Under the pieces are notes generated by a model, which did no database searches, was not told the origin of the DNA, and worked only from the letters and a program-made list of their open reading frames with translations. The translations under genes were made by a program, and so were the position numbers. A DNA stretch of 30,473 bases from a virus. Shown one piece after another: positions 14,031-30,473 of this stretch. The DNA lies in IMG/VR virus record IMGVR_UViG_3300030020_000072, positions 1 through 30,473 of that record; one strand, written 5' to 3'. The first letter of the stretch is position 1; every line of letters begins with the position of its first letter.

Positions 14031-14576
14031 ATGAAAAATAAAATCCTCTTGCTGTTGGCGGTGGCGGGTCTGGCGGTTTCGGCCCCAGCCCAAACACTGA
14101 CCACGAACGAAACCACGGCGGTTCAGTCCACCCAGACGTTCTTTACGTCGGCGGAAAATTATTTCACCGAGATCAACACCAATTTCACCTGGACAAACGT
14201 GACTTTGGAAGCGTCCACGGGTTACAAACAGGTCACCGGCGTGAATGCGGCGTCGGTGGTGGATGTCCAGTATGACCTGGGCAATTGGGGTGCGGGCATT
14301 TCGGCCCAGTTCTCCGGGGTCGGTTCGCCGATCAATGCCTTGCAGGCCAGCGGCAGTTATGCGCTGATCTCGCGTTACGATACCAAGTTGGAAGGTTATA
14401 TCCGCGTGGGCTACGATTGGAACGTGAAAGGGGGTGTGGCCGAACCGGGCATTCTGATCAAGAAAAAGCTCACGGCCAATACCTTCGCCGACATCGGTAT
14501 CAGTCTCCCGGTCTATACGGTGGGCAAATTGAACCGCAATCCCACGCTGGAAATCGCCACCGGCTTTACCTACTAA
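14031..14576 (+). CDS. Secreted outer-membrane beta-barrel-like protein
   Basis: A 181-aa protein with a Sec signal peptide (MKNKILLLLAVAGLAVSAPA, cleavage near AQ at about 20-21) and a mature part of alternating strands rich in Gly and aromatic residues, ending in ATGFTY with the terminal aromatic residue typical of outer-membrane barrels. Segment lengths suit an eight-stranded barrel. It lies at the head of the late region but is not virion-like; surface alteration or superinfection exclusion is plausible. The A/C-rich leader and hairpin upstream replace a Shine-Dalgarno site. Confidence 0.7.
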   Translation: MKNKILLLLAVAGLAVSAPAQTLTTNETTAVQSTQTFFTSAENYFTEINTNFTWTNVTLEASTGYKQVTGVNAASVVDVQYDLGNWGAGISAQFSGVGSPINALQASGSYALISRYDTKLEGYIRVGYDWNVKGGVAEPGILIKKKLTANTFADIGISLPVYTVGKLNRNPTLEIATGFTY

Positions 14577-14589
14577 GGCACTGCGTGCC

Positions 14590-14625
14590 GGCCACTGATT
14601 GCGTCAGGGCCACCAAAAACGTCTT
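14590..14625 (+). terminator. Possible weak terminator after the barrel-protein gene
   Basis: GGCC-A-CTGA and TCAG-GGCC (14590-14611) can pair around a TTGCG loop, and a T5 run follows about nine bases later (14623-14627). Imperfect stem and spacing make this uncertain. Confidence 0.3.
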
Positions 14626-14742
14626 TTTATAACAAACCAGAGAGCAGTAACGGCGGTTTCCGGGGTAATCCGGCCAGATCGGGCGACCGACAACATTCAA
14701 AGTCCCAGACGGCTCAAAACCCCGGTGCAATTTTCCTCCCAC

Positions 14743-15564
14743 ATGACCACCAGCCATCATCCGAATGGATTCAACCTGACCCGCGCGCGGTCGTTGGGGT
14801 ATTACTCTCAGGCAGCCTATGAGGAACTGCCGTCCGATTTGCCGAAAGCCAAGATGTTGGAGGATGTCAGATTTGATACCCGCGTGCTGGTGGATGAACG
14901 CAAGGGCTGCATCACGCTCGCTTTTCGCGGCACGGTCAGCTTGCAGGATTGGCTGATTGATTTGGATGTCGCCAAGACATCGCTGGCCTATCGCGTGGCG
15001 GTTCACAGCGGGTTTCTGAAGGCGGCGGAAGAGTTGTTCCAGATGTTGCTGGCCGAACTGCTCCCGGCCGGCGCGGATAAGTCCGCGCTTAAATCGATTT
15101 ACGTCACGGGCCATAGCCTGGGCGGGGCCTTGGCCACGTTGGTGGCGTTCTTTCTCCACCGGGAAGGATTCCCGGTGGCGGGCGTTTATACGTTCGCCAG
15201 CCCCCGCGTGGGCAATGCCGCCTGGCGTCGGGATTACCAGCGCCTGCTCGGGGCCAAGACGTATCGCATTATCGCCCAGGGCGACCTGGTGCCGTTGGTT
15301 CCGGGGCTGCTGGATGGTTACCGTCATGTGGGCACCGAAATCATGCTGGAACGGTCCGGCCGCGTGGTGGCCCGTCCGCCGCATTGGCACGAACTCCTTT
15401 TGGATGGCGTGGCCTATTGGAACGCCGCCCGGAAATGGGATTTCGCCGCCGTCATCCAGAACCATTCTTTGGCCGATGACTATCTGACCCTGTTAAATCT
15501 GGCGGAAGAAAATCACCGCCGGTTTTTCAATATCACCGGCCTAGCCTGGAACAAATATGATTGA
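14743..15564 (+). CDS. Class 3 lipase in the lysis-gene position
   Basis: A 273-aa alpha/beta hydrolase of the Lipase_3 family. TGHSLGGALATL places the nucleophile at S125, followed by D181 (GDLVPLVPG) and H241 (NHSLADDY), in the order of the family triad. The oxyanion-hole region LAFRGTVSLQDWLIDL (about 62-77) also matches. No signal peptide is seen. It stands where Mu-like phages carry the endolysin, before small membrane proteins, so it may attack membrane lipids during lysis; a lysogenic role is also possible. The ATG at 14743 was chosen because the homologous domain begins about 15 residues later; the frame is open to 14599. Confidence 0.85.
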   Translation: MTTSHHPNGFNLTRARSLGYYSQAAYEELPSDLPKAKMLEDVRFDTRVLVDERKGCITLAFRGTVSLQDWLIDLDVAKTSLAYRVAVHSGFLKAAEELFQMLLAELLPAGADKSALKSIYVTGHSLGGALATLVAFFLHREGFPVAGVYTFASPRVGNAAWRRDYQRLLGAKTYRIIAQGDLVPLVPGLLDGYRHVGTEIMLERSGRVVARPPHWHELLLDGVAYWNAARKWDFAAVIQNHSLADDYLTLLNLAEENHRRFFNITGLAWNKYD

Positions 15565-15832
15565 TACGAACACGATTGCCCAGACGGCTCAGGCGGCTGC
15601 CCTGGCGAAATCATCCCTTCAACCGTACCTTCCCGCTCTGGCCATTGCCGCGGCGTGGGCCGGACGCGAGCTGAAAAATTTTAATTTTTGGCTGGTGGAC
15701 ACTTCCGAGTTCATCATGAAACACGGTGGCATCGGTTACCTGCTTTGGAAGTTAATCTGGAACCCGCCCCAACCCAGCTCGCCCAATCCTGCTGGCTCCC
15801 CGGCCACCGAAAAACCTTTCCCCTCACCTTGA
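15557..15832 (+). CDS. Small membrane-associated protein, possible lysis gene
   Basis: A 91-aa protein overlapping the lipase end by eight bases. A hydrophobic stretch (YLPALAIAAAWAGRELKNF, about 24-42), a second one (GIGYLLWKLIWNPP) and a Pro/Ser-rich C-terminus suggest one or two membrane segments. Position in the lysis module makes holin or antiholin a candidate, without a family match. Confidence 0.6.
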   Translation: MIDTNTIAQTAQAAALAKSSLQPYLPALAIAAAWAGRELKNFNFWLVDTSEFIMKHGGIGYLLWKLIWNPPQPSSPNPAGSPATEKPFPSP

Positions 15833-15849
15833 ACCATCCCTTTTTTATC

Positions 15850-16260
15850 ATGCTCGCCCAAGCTGACATTTCCACGTTGCCCGCCGGATTTCTCAAAGAC
15901 GTCATCATTGTGATGGTGGCGGCCATCATCCTGATGACCGGCTTGATGACGGCCGTATTTATGGGACTGCAATATTTTCTGGAACGGCGGCGCATTGCCC
16001 GCGAAGAGGCGGCGGCGGAAAACCCGGGGGTGATGAACATCGGCCCCACGCCGTTGCCGGTCACCAAGGTGTATCCCACGGCCACGCTCCGCGACCTGAA
16101 TGACCACGGACGCCGGCTGGACGACCACGACAAGCAGCTCAATTCCCTGTGGACCACCATGCGGGAAGAGGACAAACAGATTCGGGCCGAACAGGCCGCG
16201 CAATATCAATCCATCAGCCTCGCCCTGGGCCGCATCGAAGGGAAACTCTCCAAGGAATAA
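15850..16260 (+). CDS. Single-pass membrane protein with coiled coil, holin/spanin-like
   Basis: A 136-aa protein. A long hydrophobic segment (about 17-44, DVIIVMVAAIILMTGLMTAV) is followed by ERRRIAREEAA, then a charged heptad-like region (DHGRRLDDHDKQLNSLWTTM, and QYQSISLALGRIEGKL at the end). This resembles inner-membrane lysis proteins with a coiled-coil tail. The ATG at 15850 was picked just before the hydrophobic segment; the frame upstream overlaps the previous gene. Confidence 0.65.
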   Translation: MLAQADISTLPAGFLKDVIIVMVAAIILMTGLMTAVFMGLQYFLERRRIAREEAAAENPGVMNIGPTPLPVTKVYPTATLRDLNDHGRRLDDHDKQLNSLWTTMREEDKQIRAEQAAQYQSISLALGRIEGKLSKE

Positions 16261-16264
16261 ATTT

Positions 16265-16543
16265 ATGTCGCTCTCCAACGAACAGAAACAAGATCTCCGC
16301 CACGCCATTCTCGAAGGGCTGGTCAACCGGCACCCCGCCGCGCTCTCGCCCCGCCAGATCCAGCGGGCCGTAAAGAAGGAAGTGGATTTTCTCTTTGAGG
16401 AATCCGATGTCCTCGCCTCGCTCGAACTACTGAAGGGCATGGCCCCGGCGCTGGTGAACAGCACGGAAGATCCGCTGGGCGGTGGCCATTATTGGGCCGC
16501 GACTTCGGCGGGTGTGCTGCACGTCGAGCGTAACCACGCCTGA
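16265..16543 (+). CDS. Small hypothetical protein, probably winged-helix
   Basis: A 92-aa helical protein (LSNEQKQDLRHAILEGLVNR, ALSPRQIQRAVKKEVDFLFE, then EESDVLASLELLKGMAPALV and HYWAATSAGVLHVERN). The helix-helix-strand end resembles a winged helix. It occupies the slot of the small Mu gp25/gp26-type genes before the terminase small subunit. No family name is claimed. Confidence 0.65.
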   Translation: MSLSNEQKQDLRHAILEGLVNRHPAALSPRQIQRAVKKEVDFLFEESDVLASLELLKGMAPALVNSTEDPLGGGHYWAATSAGVLHVERNHA

Positions 16544-16566
16544 ACGCGGACCAACGGACACCATTT

Positions 16567-17277
16567 ATGGAACTCGCTGACAATGCTCTGAAAGGGAAAA
16601 TCGCCCGGCTCCCGGCCACGGTGCGCGATGAGGTTTCGCGCCGCCTGAACGATGGCCAGCCCGGCAGCGTGATTCTGCCCTGGCTGAACGCATTGCCGGC
16701 GGTGCAGGCCGTGCTGGCGGCGTCGTTCGACGGGGTGCCGGTCAGCGATGAGAATCTCAGCGTCTGGCGGCGCACGGGTTTTGTGGAATGGAAACGCCGG
16801 GCGGAACGCATTGAACGCACGCGCGAACTTAGCCGGTACGCGGCGGAAGTCTCGCGGGCCAATGGCGCGAGCATCGCGGATGGCGCGGCCAGCATCGCCG
16901 CCGGCAAGCTTTTGGAGCTGCTGGAAGTGATTGATGAAGCGTCCATCCTGGATGAACCGGGCGAGGACGAAAAGGGCAAGAAGACTCCCGCCGAAATTCT
17001 GGTGGCCGTGGCCGGGGCGCTGGGCAGCTTGCGGACCACCGAACAAAACGAGGTTCGCCTCAAACAGAATGACCGGAGGTTGAAACAGGGCGATGCCAAG
17101 CTGGCCTTGGAACGGGAAAAGTTCCAGCGCGATACCGCCGGCATTGCGTTGAAGATTTTGGGCGATGACCGGGCGAAGGCGATTGAATCCGGCACCGGCA
17201 GCATGGCGGAGAAGATTGAAGCCCTCGGCCAGCTCATGTTCCCGGATACCTGGAAGCCGGCCACGCCCGCGAAATGA
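16567..17277 (+). CDS. Mu gp27-like small terminase protein (DUF3486-type)
   Basis: A 236-aa protein. The N-terminal region (LPATVRDEVSRRLNDGQPGS, ILPWLNALPAV, GVPVSDENLSVWRRTGFVEW) follows the DUF3486 family, which supplies the small terminase subunit in Mu-like phages. After this come an Ala-rich helical region and a long charged coiled coil (EVRLKQNDRRLKQGDAKLAL). Its neighbour is the terminase large subunit four bases downstream. Confidence 0.75.
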   Translation: MELADNALKGKIARLPATVRDEVSRRLNDGQPGSVILPWLNALPAVQAVLAASFDGVPVSDENLSVWRRTGFVEWKRRAERIERTRELSRYAAEVSRANGASIADGAASIAAGKLLELLEVIDEASILDEPGEDEKGKKTPAEILVAVAGALGSLRTTEQNEVRLKQNDRRLKQGDAKLALEREKFQRDTAGIALKILGDDRAKAIESGTGSMAEKIEALGQLMFPDTWKPATPAK

Positions 17278-24544: not shown

Positions 24545-24982
24545 ATGAAAAACCAAAAAAATTCGCTGGTCTCCTCTCTGATCCTGGTCGCTTTCGTCCT
24601 GGTCGCCTCGCTGGTCACCCTTCAGGCCCAGCAGTACTACACCAACTCCACCCCCCCGAACGGCTATCCGCAAGGCTATTCCGCCGGGTATTCCCAACCG
24701 CTGGCCCCGAGCCAGACGCTGGGCAACCAGGTGGCGGATGGCATCTTTTCCGGCCAGTTTAACACGGGCACCAATGCCGCGGTGACGAACCTGTTCTCGG
24801 CCCTGTTTCCGGCCACCACGAACCTGTACGCCGCCCCCGCGGTGTATGTGCAGCAAATCAATCCGACCATCGGCGGGTTGGTCGGCACCAATCAGGTGTT
24901 GTTCGTCACGACCACCAATTGTGCCGTTTACTTCGGCGGCGCCACCAACGTCAATTATTCGCTGACCGTCATCGGTCACTGA
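24545..24982 (+). CDS. Secreted Asn/Thr-rich small protein
   Basis: A 145-aa protein with a Sec signal peptide (SSLILVAFVLVASLVTLQA, about 10-28, cleaved before QQ) and a mature part rich in Gln, Tyr, Asn, Thr and Gly, ending GATNVNYSLTVIGH. No enzyme motif or domain is recognised. It lies between capsid and cement-like genes, where an exported product is unexpected. It may be a surface or adhesion protein made late. Without a Shine-Dalgarno site, the ATG is preceded by CCAATCAAAAAATCGC. Confidence 0.65.
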   Translation: MKNQKNSLVSSLILVAFVLVASLVTLQAQQYYTNSTPPNGYPQGYSAGYSQPLAPSQTLGNQVADGIFSGQFNTGTNAAVTNLFSALFPATTNLYAAPAVYVQQINPTIGGLVGTNQVLFVTTTNCAVYFGGATNVNYSLTVIGH

Positions 24983-25623: not shown

Positions 25624-27003
25624 ATGCACAACTCCAAAAAGCCCAAAATCCCCGCGTGGATGGCCCTCGAGGTCCTCGAATATGATCTGGACCTGAATCC
25701 CGCTCCGGAAACCATCCTGGACATCGGCGCCAACATCGGCGCATTTTCCCTGCACTATTCCCAGAAGTGGCCGAATGCTCACATTTTTGCTTACGAGCCG
25801 GTCAAAGCCAATTTTGAAGAATTGGCATTCTTGGAAAGCGAACGCATTCACCCGATCTGCTGTGCCATTCGTGGCGAAAATGCGGACGGGTATGACAACA
25901 TCTTCATCGGTGACCATGGGGTCACTTGCAGTTTCCACCAGCGCGGCCGGCAAACCACTGCCAAAGAAAAGGTCATTTGCATGTCCGCGAATAACTGCCC
26001 GGATGCTGATCTGATCAAGATTGATACGGAAGGCTGTGAGCTGGAAATCATTTTTGCGTTGCCACTGGATAAAACCCGCGCCCTGGTGGTTGAATATCAC
26101 GCCGCGGCGGATGTCGATAAAATCGACGTCTATCTCACTGCTAAAGGTTTTTCCCAGTTGGAACACATCCCGCATTATCCGGGGTTTGGCGTTTTGAAGT
26201 ATGGCCGCATCAATGCCGGTGTTTCTCTTCCCAAGCCGCCGCCCGCTCCCGCGGCAACCAGTGTTCCGGCTCCCGCCGCGAACGGCCCGGCCCGCAAGGT
26301 GTACATCGCCGTCGCCGCCCATTTTGCCAGCAACGATTTGATGTTCGTCCAATCGCTGCTCGCGCTGGTGGCCCGTCCGCCGTTGCCGTTGGCGTTTGGG
26401 TTCTCCGCAGATCCCAGTGTGGAACGTGCCCGGAATATTCTGACCGCCAATTTTCTGGCGACGGATTGCACGCACATCCTGTTCATTGATTCGGACATTG
26501 GCTTCAGCCCGGCCGATGTCGCCCAAATTTCCCGGCACGATGAGCTGGTGGTCGGCGGGATGTATCCCTTGAAAAGCATGACGCCGGATGTCACCTGGTG
26601 TGGCAACGCGCTGGACGCTGGCCAGCAGCCCGGCGCAGCGGAGCGCCCGGACAGTCTCACGCCGGTCAAATACATCGGCACGGGCTTCCTGTGTATCGCG
26701 CGGCAGGTTTTTGAGCATATCGTCGCCGTGGATGGCCCGGCGATTGAATACAAACAGGATTTTCCGCCGCATCGCCGCGAGTTCGCCTTCTGGCGGCAAG
26801 GGGTGGCCGCGGGCCGGTTCCTCACGGAAGACTGGCTTTTCTGCCAGCGTTGGCTGGAACTGGGCGGCAAGATTTTCGCCGACCGCGCCGTCGTTCTGAA
26901 ACACGCCGGCCGGGCCGAATGGCCCTTGCCCTTCCAAGCCGGCAATCCGTTTGTTAAACCGGAAAGGGTCCCCGCCAATCCCAGCCCCGCGCCTCGCGCC
27001 TAA
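25624..27003 (+). CDS. FkbM-type methyltransferase fused to GT-A glycosyltransferase
   Basis: A 459-aa fusion. Domain 1 (about 10-200) is an FkbM methyltransferase: LDIGANIGAFSLHYS (32-46) binds S-adenosylmethionine, AYEPV follows (57-61), and LIKIDTEGCE (130-139) carries the family's D-T-E-G motif. A Pro/Ala linker (about 205-225) joins domain 2, a GT-A glycosyltransferase with ILFIDSDIGFSP and the metal-binding D289-x-D291, plus TEDWLFCQRW (401-410) where the catalytic base is expected. Substrates are unknown; sugar O-methylation with transfer onto a virion protein or host glycan is inferred. The 3' end is a heptad array that includes the stop. Confidence 0.82.
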   Translation: MHNSKKPKIPAWMALEVLEYDLDLNPAPETILDIGANIGAFSLHYSQKWPNAHIFAYEPVKANFEELAFLESERIHPICCAIRGENADGYDNIFIGDHGVTCSFHQRGRQTTAKEKVICMSANNCPDADLIKIDTEGCELEIIFALPLDKTRALVVEYHAAADVDKIDVYLTAKGFSQLEHIPHYPGFGVLKYGRINAGVSLPKPPPAPAATSVPAPAANGPARKVYIAVAAHFASNDLMFVQSLLALVARPPLPLAFGFSADPSVERARNILTANFLATDCTHILFIDSDIGFSPADVAQISRHDELVVGGMYPLKSMTPDVTWCGNALDAGQQPGAAERPDSLTPVKYIGTGFLCIARQVFEHIVAVDGPAIEYKQDFPPHRREFAFWRQGVAAGRFLTEDWLFCQRWLELGGKIFADRAVVLKHAGRAEWPLPFQAGNPFVKPERVPANPSPAPRA

Positions 27004-27012
27004 CGCCTATTC
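26985..27012 (+). repeat. Heptad array from the fusion-gene stop to the gp36-like start
   Basis: Four 7-base units, including CCTCGCG and CCTAACG, run into the ATG at 27014. The unit CCTAACG contains the stop codon TAA (27001-27003). The identical unit CCTAACG plays the same part at 11373-11379. Confidence 0.65.
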
Positions 27013-27013
27013 T

Positions 27014-27436
27014 ATGCCCTACTGCACCCAACAAGAAGTTCAAGAGGAAATCGGCGGCTGGAACCGGGTGCAAGAGGCATTGGACGACTCGGGCACTGGG
27101 AACCAGGTGGAGCTGACCGCCCGCCTGGGTAATCTCATGGCGCGGGCCAGCGCGGCCGTGGATGCCTTCCTGCAAGGCCGCTACATCACGCCGCTCTCGC
27201 CGGTTCCGGCGATTGCGGTGGAAGCGTCCATCATTTTCACGGCGGAGATCCTGTATGGACGTCGCCGGCAGAGTACGGACGAAAAGAACCCGTACACGGC
27301 CCGGGCGAACGATCTCCGCGACCGGCTCAAACGCATCGCCGACCGAAAAGAGAGCTTGGATGCCTTGGAACGCCCCGCCTTCACGCCGGGCGCGGTCCTG
27401 AGCAAACCCAGTTCGCTGAACGGTTCCTCCCTGTAA
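27014..27436 (+). CDS. Mu gp36-like head-tail joining protein (DUF1320)
   Basis: A 140-aa protein of the Mu gp36 (DUF1320) family. Pattern: PYCTQQEVQEEIGG at the start, LMARASAAVDAFLQGRYITP (about 42-61), EASIIFTAEILYGRRRQ (70-86) and a charged tail. It probably belongs to the head-tail connector. ATG 27014 is right after the heptad array. Confidence 0.8.
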   Translation: MPYCTQQEVQEEIGGWNRVQEALDDSGTGNQVELTARLGNLMARASAAVDAFLQGRYITPLSPVPAIAVEASIIFTAEILYGRRRQSTDEKNPYTARANDLRDRLKRIADRKESLDALERPAFTPGAVLSKPSSLNGSSL

Positions 27437-27458: not shown

Positions 27459-27956
27459 GTGACCGAAGAACAACAACTGATGCACATCAAGTCCGGCCTG
27501 GAAGACTGGCGGCGGACCTACAATGGGCAGATTCACATCGCCCATGATCATGCGCATCTGTTGAAAATCTTGGGTGGCGATGCCGGCACGCCCCGCATCG
27601 GCATTTTGCTGTACGGCGAGAAGCCCCGGAACGAAGCGGACAGCGATTTTGAGACCCGGATGGACCGGACGTTCTGGATTGCCCTGTCCCGGGGCTGGAC
27701 GCTGGAATCCTACGCCGGGAAATCGCTGGTGGAAGGCATTGCCGGCGGACCGCCGCTGTATCAGCTCCTGCGCGATGCCAAGGTGGCCGTGCGCAATTTG
27801 CGCTTTGATGCGGATTCCGAACCGGTTCCGTATTACAAGGGCTACGAAATGCTGACCTTTGAAGGCCAGGCGCTGGATGCGTACCGCATCGAAATCACCG
27901 TGACCTCGGATGACCAGGCCGAACCCGGCCCGGACGATTTGACCCCCGGACAATAA
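27459..27956 (+). CDS. Mu gp37-like tail-connector protein (DUF1834 type)
   Basis: A 165-aa protein that follows the gp36-like gene as gp37 does in Mu. Recognisable parts: DDLTPGQ end, GIAGGPPLYQLLRDAKVAVR (about 90-109), ILLYGEKPRN and MLTFEGQALDAYRIEITVTS. The family match is by gene order and weak pattern. GTG 27459 is chosen at the end of the heptad array; ATG 27480 is a possible alternative. Confidence 0.6.
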   Translation: MTEEQQLMHIKSGLEDWRRTYNGQIHIAHDHAHLLKILGGDAGTPRIGILLYGEKPRNEADSDFETRMDRTFWIALSRGWTLESYAGKSLVEGIAGGPPLYQLLRDAKVAVRNLRFDADSEPVPYYKGYEMLTFEGQALDAYRIEITVTSDDQAEPGPDDLTPGQ

Positions 27957-27969
27957 GTTGAATAACCCC

Positions 27970-30473
27970 ATGAAACATCTCCTCAAACTCCTCTTAGTCC
28001 TGACGATTCTTTCCCAGAGTTGCCGCCCCGTGTTCGCCGGGAATGCGGTCATCACCATTTTGGATGGCCAGATGAATCCGCTGGCGAATGAAAATTGTGT
28101 GCTGTCCTATTTTGGGGCCCCGCACAGCATGGCGGGCGGCAGCGCCGTGCAATGGCGCACCACGGCCACCAGCGGCACCAATGGTGTCATCACCCTCACC
28201 AACGCGGCGCCGGGCGGCTGGCAGGTCAAGCCGATGGACATGAACACCGTGGCGTTTACCTTTTTGATGCCCGTTACAAACGGCACTATTTATGTGCAGA
28301 GCTGGACCACCGCCAGCGCCGGGAATACGCTTCCGCCCGATACCATGAGCTTTGGCTGCAATGCCTCGGATCTGCGCTATGATTTTTCCGGATTAGCGGC
28401 GCAGGAATACACCAATCTGACGATCTGGGCGCTGACCAATTTTGATTTGGCGGGTTCGGGTCCGGCGGCCGCCGCACAAGTTATCTCCACCGGCCAGGCG
28501 GCCACGTTCGGGAGCCTGACGGCCACCGGCAGCGTGTCGGTCAGTGGCAATGTCGCCGTGGTGGGCACCAATTCGGCGGCGTATTTTGCGGGCAATGGCG
28601 GCAGCCTGACCGGCCTCAATTATTCAAATATTTCCAACTCGCCGACGTTGTACAACGGCCAAACCGCCACCAACAGTTTTGACCCGACCAATTCAGCGGC
28701 GATCGTGCTGGCTGCTATGGTGTCGAGCAATTACGTTCCGACCACCACGAATTACGTCGCCATCGGCACGGCGAATCCTGGAACCGTTTTGGGAATAAAA
28801 ACGATCAATGCCAACGCCGGTTTGAACGGCGATTATCTGCCTTACTGGCCAACGGTCATCACAAATATTTACGGTTCCGGTGAGATGGTGTTCAAACAAT
28901 CGGGCGGCACCAATTACCTGATGACCAATCCCTACGGGGCAGAGAATGGCGCGTGGCTGTTCACTGCCACCACGAACACCAGCGGCGGAGCGTATTACAA
29001 TGGCGCTTTTTGGCAGGGTCAGGCCGCTAACTCTTCGCAGGCCAACCCGTGCTGGTTCGGTCAATTCGGCCAGCCCGCGTGGACGGCCAATCCATCCGGC
29101 AACCAGTCTGCGTTGGTTGGCACGGCTCCGCCGGTCTGTTTTTTTAACACCTACACCAATTCGGTAACCGCCCCGGCGGCGACCTTTGGAACGGTTTACG
29201 CGGGCAACCTGACCGGCAACGCCTCCAATTTGGTCAACGTCACCATTAGCGGCCAGCAGACCGCCTACGGTGTCGCCCAAGTGGGTATCAACCTCGGAAC
29301 GAATTACTCGATGGAATTGAATATTGCCGGGGCTACGAATGTAGCATTGTCCGGCCAAGCCCAATGGGGTGCGCTCATGAAGCCGTGTTTTAATATTCTG
29401 ATGATTGGGGCTCTGGCCAACTCACCCGGTGCAACCGAAACCGGCATTGTGCAATGTGTCCAAGCCATCGAGACCTTGCCATCGTGGTCTCACCTGACGA
29501 ACTGGTTTCAGCCGATTGTGGAAATTCAGCAGGGCATGTTCATGCGGCGCAGCTCCACCGGCCAGCTTCAATGGAATACCAACCAATATCCGTCCGGCCC
29601 TTCGTTCATCCCCAATTTTCTGCATACCAACGGCTTCACGCTGAACCCGATTTATGATTTTTACTGCACGTCTTGGGGGCATATTCCACCGGGAGCCTCC
29701 GGCGTTTGCATGAACACCATCGGCGGCAGTTCGACCAACTACATTTACACCAACACGAGCGGCACCATCACCCCTTCGTTTTTGACCAATCTCACATCCT
29801 ATTCCGATTTGACCTTGCCGGAAACCATGTTGGCTGATGCGAAGTTTCTGCAAACGAATGGCTGGAATTTCGGTGAAGCGGATTTGCCGGCGCAACAGTT
29901 GGCCCCGCTGGCGGCCCAGATTCAAATCCAGTGTGAGCAGGAAATTGCCCTCGCGGTTCAAAAGTGCATTACCCAATCGAACGACCAACCCATGATTATC
30001 ATGGATTTTGACACGTCTGCCTTCAACAACCTTTACCCGTACGGCAGCCAGACCGCCCAGTTCCACAATATATTCTCTTGCGATCAGGGCCCGGGAATCA
30101 ATGGCGACGCCACGATGATGGTTCACGGGCAGGCGTTTGCCGGAACGCAGTTTTTTTATCAGGGCGGGTACAACGACGGATCTCAATATGGCGCGGTATC
30201 ATCTGCCAACGGGCCAGCCTATCTAATCACCTGCGCGATGACCGGCGAGTTTCCGACCACGCCCATGAATGCGTATAGCCCGTACACCATCAATTACGTC
30301 ACAAACAATCTTCTGTTGACCACCTATGGCACGAATGACCTCTGGCAGATGGTGGAAGCGGACCCGCTCCAAGCGGAGCCCGTGCCGTGGATTGTGAATG
30401 GCGGTTCCGGTGGCTACAACACGAACGATAATTGGTCGATCTGGTATCGCAACCTGTCCGGCAACCGGTTCGC
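27970..30473 (+). CDS. Tail-fibre-like protein with GH27-type glycoside hydrolase domain (cut by window end)
   Basis: An open frame of at least 834 residues, continuing past the window. It begins with a signal-like segment (MKHLLKLLLVLTILSQSCRP, cleavage near VFA-G at about 24). Residues 25-440 are Asn/Thr/Gly-rich beta material typical of fibres and adhesins, with AGNGGSLTGL and AGNLTGNASNL. Residues about 450-834 look like the GH27 alpha-galactosidase barrel: YPSG...NFLHTNGFTLNPIYD (540-563), DAKFLQTNGWNFGEADLP with putative nucleophile D638, GGYNDG (732-737) and a C-terminal ADPLQAEPVPW...WSIWYRNLSG. It could cleave host-surface galactosides for adsorption. It may instead be an exported enzyme. 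Confidence 0.7.
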   Translation, partial: MKHLLKLLLVLTILSQSCRPVFAGNAVITILDGQMNPLANENCVLSYFGAPHSMAGGSAVQWRTTATSGTNGVITLTNAAPGGWQVKPMDMNTVAFTFLMPVTNGTIYVQSWTTASAGNTLPPDTMSFGCNASDLRYDFSGLAAQEYTNLTIWALTNFDLAGSGPAAAAQVISTGQAATFGSLTATGSVSVSGNVAVVGTNSAAYFAGNGGSLTGLNYSNISNSPTLYNGQTATNSFDPTNSAAIVLAAMVSSNYVPTTTNYVAIGTANPGTVLGIKTINANAGLNGDYLPYWPTVITNIYGSGEMVFKQSGGTNYLMTNPYGAENGAWLFTATTNTSGGAYYNGAFWQGQAANSSQANPCWFGQFGQPAWTANPSGNQSALVGTAPPVCFFNTYTNSVTAPAATFGTVYAGNLTGNASNLVNVTISGQQTAYGVAQVGINLGTNYSMELNIAGATNVALSGQAQWGALMKPCFNILMIGALANSPGATETGIVQCVQAIETLPSWSHLTNWFQPIVEIQQGMFMRRSSTGQLQWNTNQYPSGPSFIPNFLHTNGFTLNPIYDFYCTSWGHIPPGASGVCMNTIGGSSTNYIYTNTSGTITPSFLTNLTSYSDLTLPETMLADAKFLQTNGWNFGEADLPAQQLAPLAAQIQIQCEQEIALAVQKCITQSNDQPMIIMDFDTSAFNNLYPYGSQTAQFHNIFSCDQGPGINGDATMMVHGQAFAGTQFFYQGGYNDGSQYGAVSSANGPAYLITCAMTGEFPTTPMNAYSPYTINYVTNNLLLTTYGTNDLWQMVEADPLQAEPVPWIVNGGSGGYNTNDNWSIWYRNLSGNRF

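Follow-up and report, generated by a model that had tools for sequence, protein, structure and literature searches.

What kind of protein does a Mu-like phage encode behind its gp36- and gp37-slot genes when it looks like a tail fibre, starts like an exported protein and has a C-terminal module faintly reminiscent of the GH27 alpha-galactosidases? We addressed this question for the last frame of the window, which is the entire IMG/VR virus record IMGVR_UViG_3300030020_000072 (30,473 bases). We favour, with moderate confidence, the view that it is a modular, receptor-binding protein of tail-fibre type from a temperate Mu-like phage.

Genomic setting and domain layout

The record is that of a temperate Mu-like phage. 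Its left arm, on the minus strand, encodes Gam, an AAA ATPase, a C5 DNA methylase and a long protein judged transposase-like by position and by eye, the last without a Pfam hit. The only isolate with a related capsid is Akkermansia phage Chantilly (25.7% identity), and this likeness, together with the style of the sequence, indicates that the host probably belongs to the Verrucomicrobiota. By scanning with capsid, N-domain and portal alignments we found two syntenic phages (L002 and L004) and several more distant ones, among them L033, L034 and G011 (L051). The frame of interest, 27970-30471 on the plus strand, is open for 834 residues up to the end of the sequence; the record stops at 30473 and thereby cuts the end of the protein. 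It lies directly downstream of the gp36- and gp37-slot genes, and the features that bear on its identity are as follows.

17281, plus: terminase-like gene, assigned by eye
19119, plus: Mu portal gene, right arm
23473, plus: capsid gene, right arm
24545-24982, plus: gene for a small signal-peptide protein, directly behind the major capsid gene
25624-27003, plus: FkbM-methyltransferase (PF05050, TIGR01444) fused to a glycosyltransferase-like part
26993..27436, plus: Mu Gp36-like neck gene (PF07030, E 7.4e-12, on frame 26951-27433)
27459..27956, plus: gp37-slot neck gene, assigned by its position after Gp36; synteny conserved in L002 and L004
27970..28038, plus: predicted Sec-type signal peptide, residues 1-23, MKHLLKLLLVLTILSQSCRPVFA/GN, putative cleavage VFA/GN; hydrophobic stretch and AGN conserved in L002 and L004
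28039..28380, plus: constant N-terminal domain, residues 24-137, delimited by identity with L002 and L004; related N-domain in G011
28381..29286, plus: fibre-like middle, residues 138-439, assigned by composition (almost without charged residues) and motif
28588-28617, plus: AGNGGSLTGL motif of the fibre-like middle, residues 207-216
29287..30471, plus: C-terminal module (residues 440-834), truncated at the record end; eight cysteines and a weak GH27-like signal
29542..29661, plus: stretch of 39 residues matched by PF16499 (profile positions 60-98)
29881..29883, plus: codon of the candidate nucleophile D638, placed on that column by hhalign and by two of the three profile alignments

Several neighbouring genes are noteworthy in their own right. 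The FkbM-methyltransferase/glycosyltransferase-like fusion sits within the head/neck operon and has counterparts in L002 (12077-12808, where the second half alone is kept), L004 (12015-13412) and L033 (14621-16015); glycans of the virion or the host are possible substrates for modification by its product. A class 3 lipase gene (14599-15564; PF01764, E 2e-28), which phages do not usually carry, precedes the packaging genes. At 14031-14576 lies the gene for another signal-peptide protein, 181 residues long; by eye it has the look of a small outer-membrane barrel, and it gave no confident family match.

A constant N-terminus and exchangeable C-termini

Comparison with the related phages shows how the protein is built. 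The protein in the same slot of L002 shares the signal peptide and the N-domain, with 60% identity over residues 22-137, and that of L004 is 45% identical over residues 1-110. Past the N-domain, these two proteins and ours have nothing in common except a short xGNGxxLTxL motif, and the C-termini are unrelated. The N-domain of the L004 homologue resembles the carboxypeptidase-regulatory-like family PF13620 at E 0.00028, below the cut-off. Among the more distant phages, the L034 protein opens with a hydrophobic stretch and continues into fibre repeats, on which a PHROG of virion structural proteins scores E 5e-17; its likeness in the N-domain is one of alignment only. The G011 fibre, 1048 residues long and encoded directly downstream of the tail-tip genes, begins with a signal peptide and a related N-domain (E 3.5e-6). 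The C-terminal module itself had no homologue in the viral_contigs, genome_contigs, phages or plasmids collections or in 13 related phage records, and tblastn of the protein against phages and plasmids returned no match.

Taken together, the constant N-terminus, the swapped C-terminus within a conserved slot (window, L002 and L004) and the similar starts on proteins with fibre repeats point to a modular tail fibre with a signal peptide as a trait of the lineage. The location of the G011 member next to tail-tip genes and the Mu-type portal and Gp36 genes upstream of our frame also count in favour of a fibre. The initial annotation had called the N-terminal half fibre-like, citing AGNGGSLTGL, and this description gains from relatives in which the signal peptide and N-domain are retained while the rest is exchanged. 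On the other side, the slot in the window lies between neck and tail-tube genes, whereas fibres usually sit at the tail tip; a signal peptide is unexpected on a virion protein assembled in the cytoplasm; and the C-terminal module is without detected homologues. Fibre function and host-surface binding are what we infer from this balance. In such a fibre, the N-terminal domain behind the Sec signal peptide would be the constant, anchoring part, the middle would form a low-charge shaft, and the C-terminal 395 or more residues would serve as an exchangeable tip that touches the host surface.

Two further observations concern the C-termini of the syntenic phages. For the L004 fibre (L004 14333-17206) we considered an SGNH hydrolase on account of the blocks AYGDSV and GDGTHLTNDAY, seen by eye, and discarded it, as PF13472 has no match in that record. 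Directly after the L002 fibre, 14904-16796 encodes a second signal-peptide protein (start near 14970), whose C-terminus appears LamG-like by eye and has no Pfam match.

A possible GH27 likeness of the C-terminal module

A competing reading is that the C-terminal module is a true, divergent TIM barrel of GH27 (clan GH-D) carried on a fibre, in which D638 would be the strand 4 nucleophile and which would cut or bind host glycans. It was prompted by motifs that the initial annotation had read as a GH27 order, and every string quoted there is present in the frame: YPSG at residues 540-543, HTNGFTLNPIYD at 552-563, DAKFLQTNGWNFGEAD at 623-638 ending in D638, GGYNDG at 732-737, ADPLQ at 797-801 and WSIWYRNLSG at 822-831. 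The motifs thus cover residues 540-831 and not the span of 540-640 first given.

Family models gave a local signal only. With hmmscan, neither the whole protein nor its C-terminal part matched any Pfam, PHROGs or NCBIfam model above cut-off, and sequence searches of the PDB with the protein returned chance-level matches only. PF16499, the GH27 model, has a single match in the whole window, at 29542-29661 and exactly on the YPSG/HTNGFTLNPIYD site; its 12.4 bits (E 0.00107) fall short of the curated cut-off of 23 bits. The same model matched none of the 13 related phage records at E<=10, and models for GH31, GH36, GH97 and GH114 found no match in the window. GH27 is hence the only one of the families tried to match, as had been proposed, yet it does so below threshold. 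The Melibiase_C/GH27 C-terminal beta domain (PF17801) has no match in the window; the record ends where that domain would begin. AlphaFold2 models built without relatives, for the whole frame and for residues 440-834, reached a mean pLDDT of 33 and 34, a confidence too low to read a fold and one that we attribute to the sequence having no relatives.

We then compared the whole module with a home-made GH27 alignment of 17 sequences, taken from plasmid and phage records by means of a hand-written GH27 consensus. (That consensus found no GH27 in viral_contigs; in the phage collection it matched 20 records, nearly all of them unannotated faecal contigs that may be bacterial.) Against 1000 shuffles, the module ranked about 7th with the resulting HMM (HMMER), and hhalign against the alignment gave P 0.015 at a probability of 3%. 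In glocal profile alignment, 17 of 1000 shuffles scored as high (z 2.3), compared with z 6.7-11.6 for GH36 controls and z 3.5 for the E. coli GH31 enzyme YicI. Ordered blocks from all 17 sequences left 6 of 1000 shuffles as high (z 3.1) and put the module above all 42 control frames; GH36 controls reached z 2.7-10.9 in this assay. With blocks from the classical subset, 412 of 1000 shuffles scored as high. These are several tests of one hypothesis, with 0.6% to 41% of shuffles as high, and they provide weak evidence, near chance and inconsistent between alignments. The proposal of a GH27-like C-terminal half retains its local PF16499 match at the expected site, but no accepted threshold is reached and the whole-domain scores are marginal. 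The composition is also discordant, as lysine and arginine make up 1.8% of the module versus 6-11% in GH27.

The individual active-site positions were examined in hhalign and in three unguided profile alignments. D638, the putative nucleophile of the first reading, falls on the GH27 nucleophile column in hhalign and in two of the three profiles, at scores near chance. An Asp also landed on this column in 4 to 6 of 40 shuffles, so the agreement on D638 is by itself modest evidence. GGYND was aligned with GGWND in two of three profiles, and YPSG with FPSG in two. What fell on the acid/base column (the strand 6 Asp) varied with the profile (D713, D679 or a gap), and D705 was placed there by eye only. 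A layout of the module as eight strand-helix units in GH27 order, with D638 on strand 4 and D705 on strand 6, can be drawn by eye; the unguided alignments fail to reproduce it as a whole.

In human alpha-galactosidase A, W47, D92, D93, K168 and R227 hold the sugar. The Trp of MGWNSWN, the strand 2 Asp pair, the Lys two before the nucleophile and the Arg of WRxxGD were gapped or replaced in all three alignments, with Q520/Q521 standing for the Asp pair in the classical profile and E636 for the Lys in the other two. The release of alpha-galactose suggested earlier finds no footing here: with these canonical residues absent, alpha-galactosidase activity is not indicated even for a GH27-type fold, and an active alpha-galactosidase appears unlikely from the sequence. 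Since most residues that hold alpha-galactose are missing, binding or another activity of the tip seems likelier than alpha-galactosidase activity. Overall, the solitary PF16499 match among the families tried, the ordered-block score and the placement of D638 speak for the divergent barrel; scores below every model cut-off, GH36 controls that are mostly far higher, the unsettled acid/base column, the lost sugar-binding residues and the scarcity of positive charge speak against it, and we regard a barrel that cuts or binds glycans as doubtful. The tip is possibly a much-diverged or dead GH27-type barrel, a suggestion that we offer tentatively.

Signal peptides in the structural operon

Tailed-phage virions assemble in the cytoplasm, and signal peptides on their proteins are unexpected. 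The start of our protein, already described as a signal peptide in the initial annotation, is conserved in the same-slot homologues. The fibres of the window, L002, L004, L034 and G011 all have a hydrophobic start, and the AGN junction follows immediately in three of them; the L034 and G011 fibres are without AGN. A second, different protein shows the same property. Behind the major capsid gene, six related phages encode a small signal-peptide protein (24545-24982 in the window, 11010-11450 in L002, 11085-11507 in L004, 13725-14126 in L033, 13484-13951 in L034, and in G011). The L034 and G011 versions of this small protein close with WIALG/WIAIG, a motif reminiscent by eye of H-type lectin-like phage proteins.

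We presume that the fibre-like protein uses its signal peptide; the eight cysteines of the C-terminal module would suit an oxidising environment. With the signal in use, the protein would be exported, could form disulfides and would encounter virions or the cell surface beyond the cytoplasm. An alternative places the protein outside the virion: the infected cell or a lysogen would export it, and it would act at the cell surface, perhaps as an adhesin or receptor-masking factor. The signal peptides conserved here and behind the capsid gene agree with such a role, and added genes can sit at such positions between structural genes; but in three related phages the same slot pairs a constant N-terminus with exchanged C-termini, as is typical of fibres, and a related N-domain heads the G011 tail-tip fibre, which makes this reading unlikely.

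We consider it similarly improbable that the hydrophobic start is an assembly or membrane-contact segment, the protein staying in the cytoplasm for normal virion assembly. Such a segment would suit the established site of assembly and the missing AGN of L034 and G011, but two different proteins carry hydrophobic starts, which the small one shows in six phages, and three fibres retain the AGN junction despite differing N-terminal sequences. Least probable, and in our view very unlikely, is the full combination in which the lineage exports both the fibre and the capsid-adjacent protein via Sec and one fibre has borrowed a GH27 barrel as a receptor-binding or -destroying tip outside the cytoplasm.

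Comparison with known systems

For the preferred modular tail fibre, the closest parallel is found in tail fibres and tailspikes that join a constant N-terminal anchor to an exchangeable receptor-binding or depolymerase C-terminus. Our protein and its relatives share this N/C pattern, with fibre repeats in L034 and G011; they differ in the signal peptide at the start and, in the window, L002 and L004, in the slot, which falls between the neck genes and the tail-tube genes. A fibre bearing a GH27-type barrel would, to our knowledge, be an unusual phage depolymerase, and our search of mainly freely available papers turned up no phage tail protein with a GH27 domain. With the GH27 alpha-galactosidases (PF16499) the module has in common the 39-residue local match, the order of several motifs and D638 near the nucleophile position, whereas it stays below every cut-off, lacks the sugar-binding residues, has no placed acid/base and carries very few positive charges.

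At the level of the genome, the phage shares with Mu-like transposable phages the head and neck genes and the left arm of Gam, AAA ATPase and a gene that is transposase-like by position, whereas its structural operon holds extra genes, namely those for two signal-peptide proteins and the FkbM-methyltransferase/glycosyltransferase-like fusion. Signal peptides on two proteins of this operon, in up to six related phages, are at odds with the textbook view of wholly cytoplasmic tailed-phage assembly; such proteins would either join virions late or work at the cell surface.
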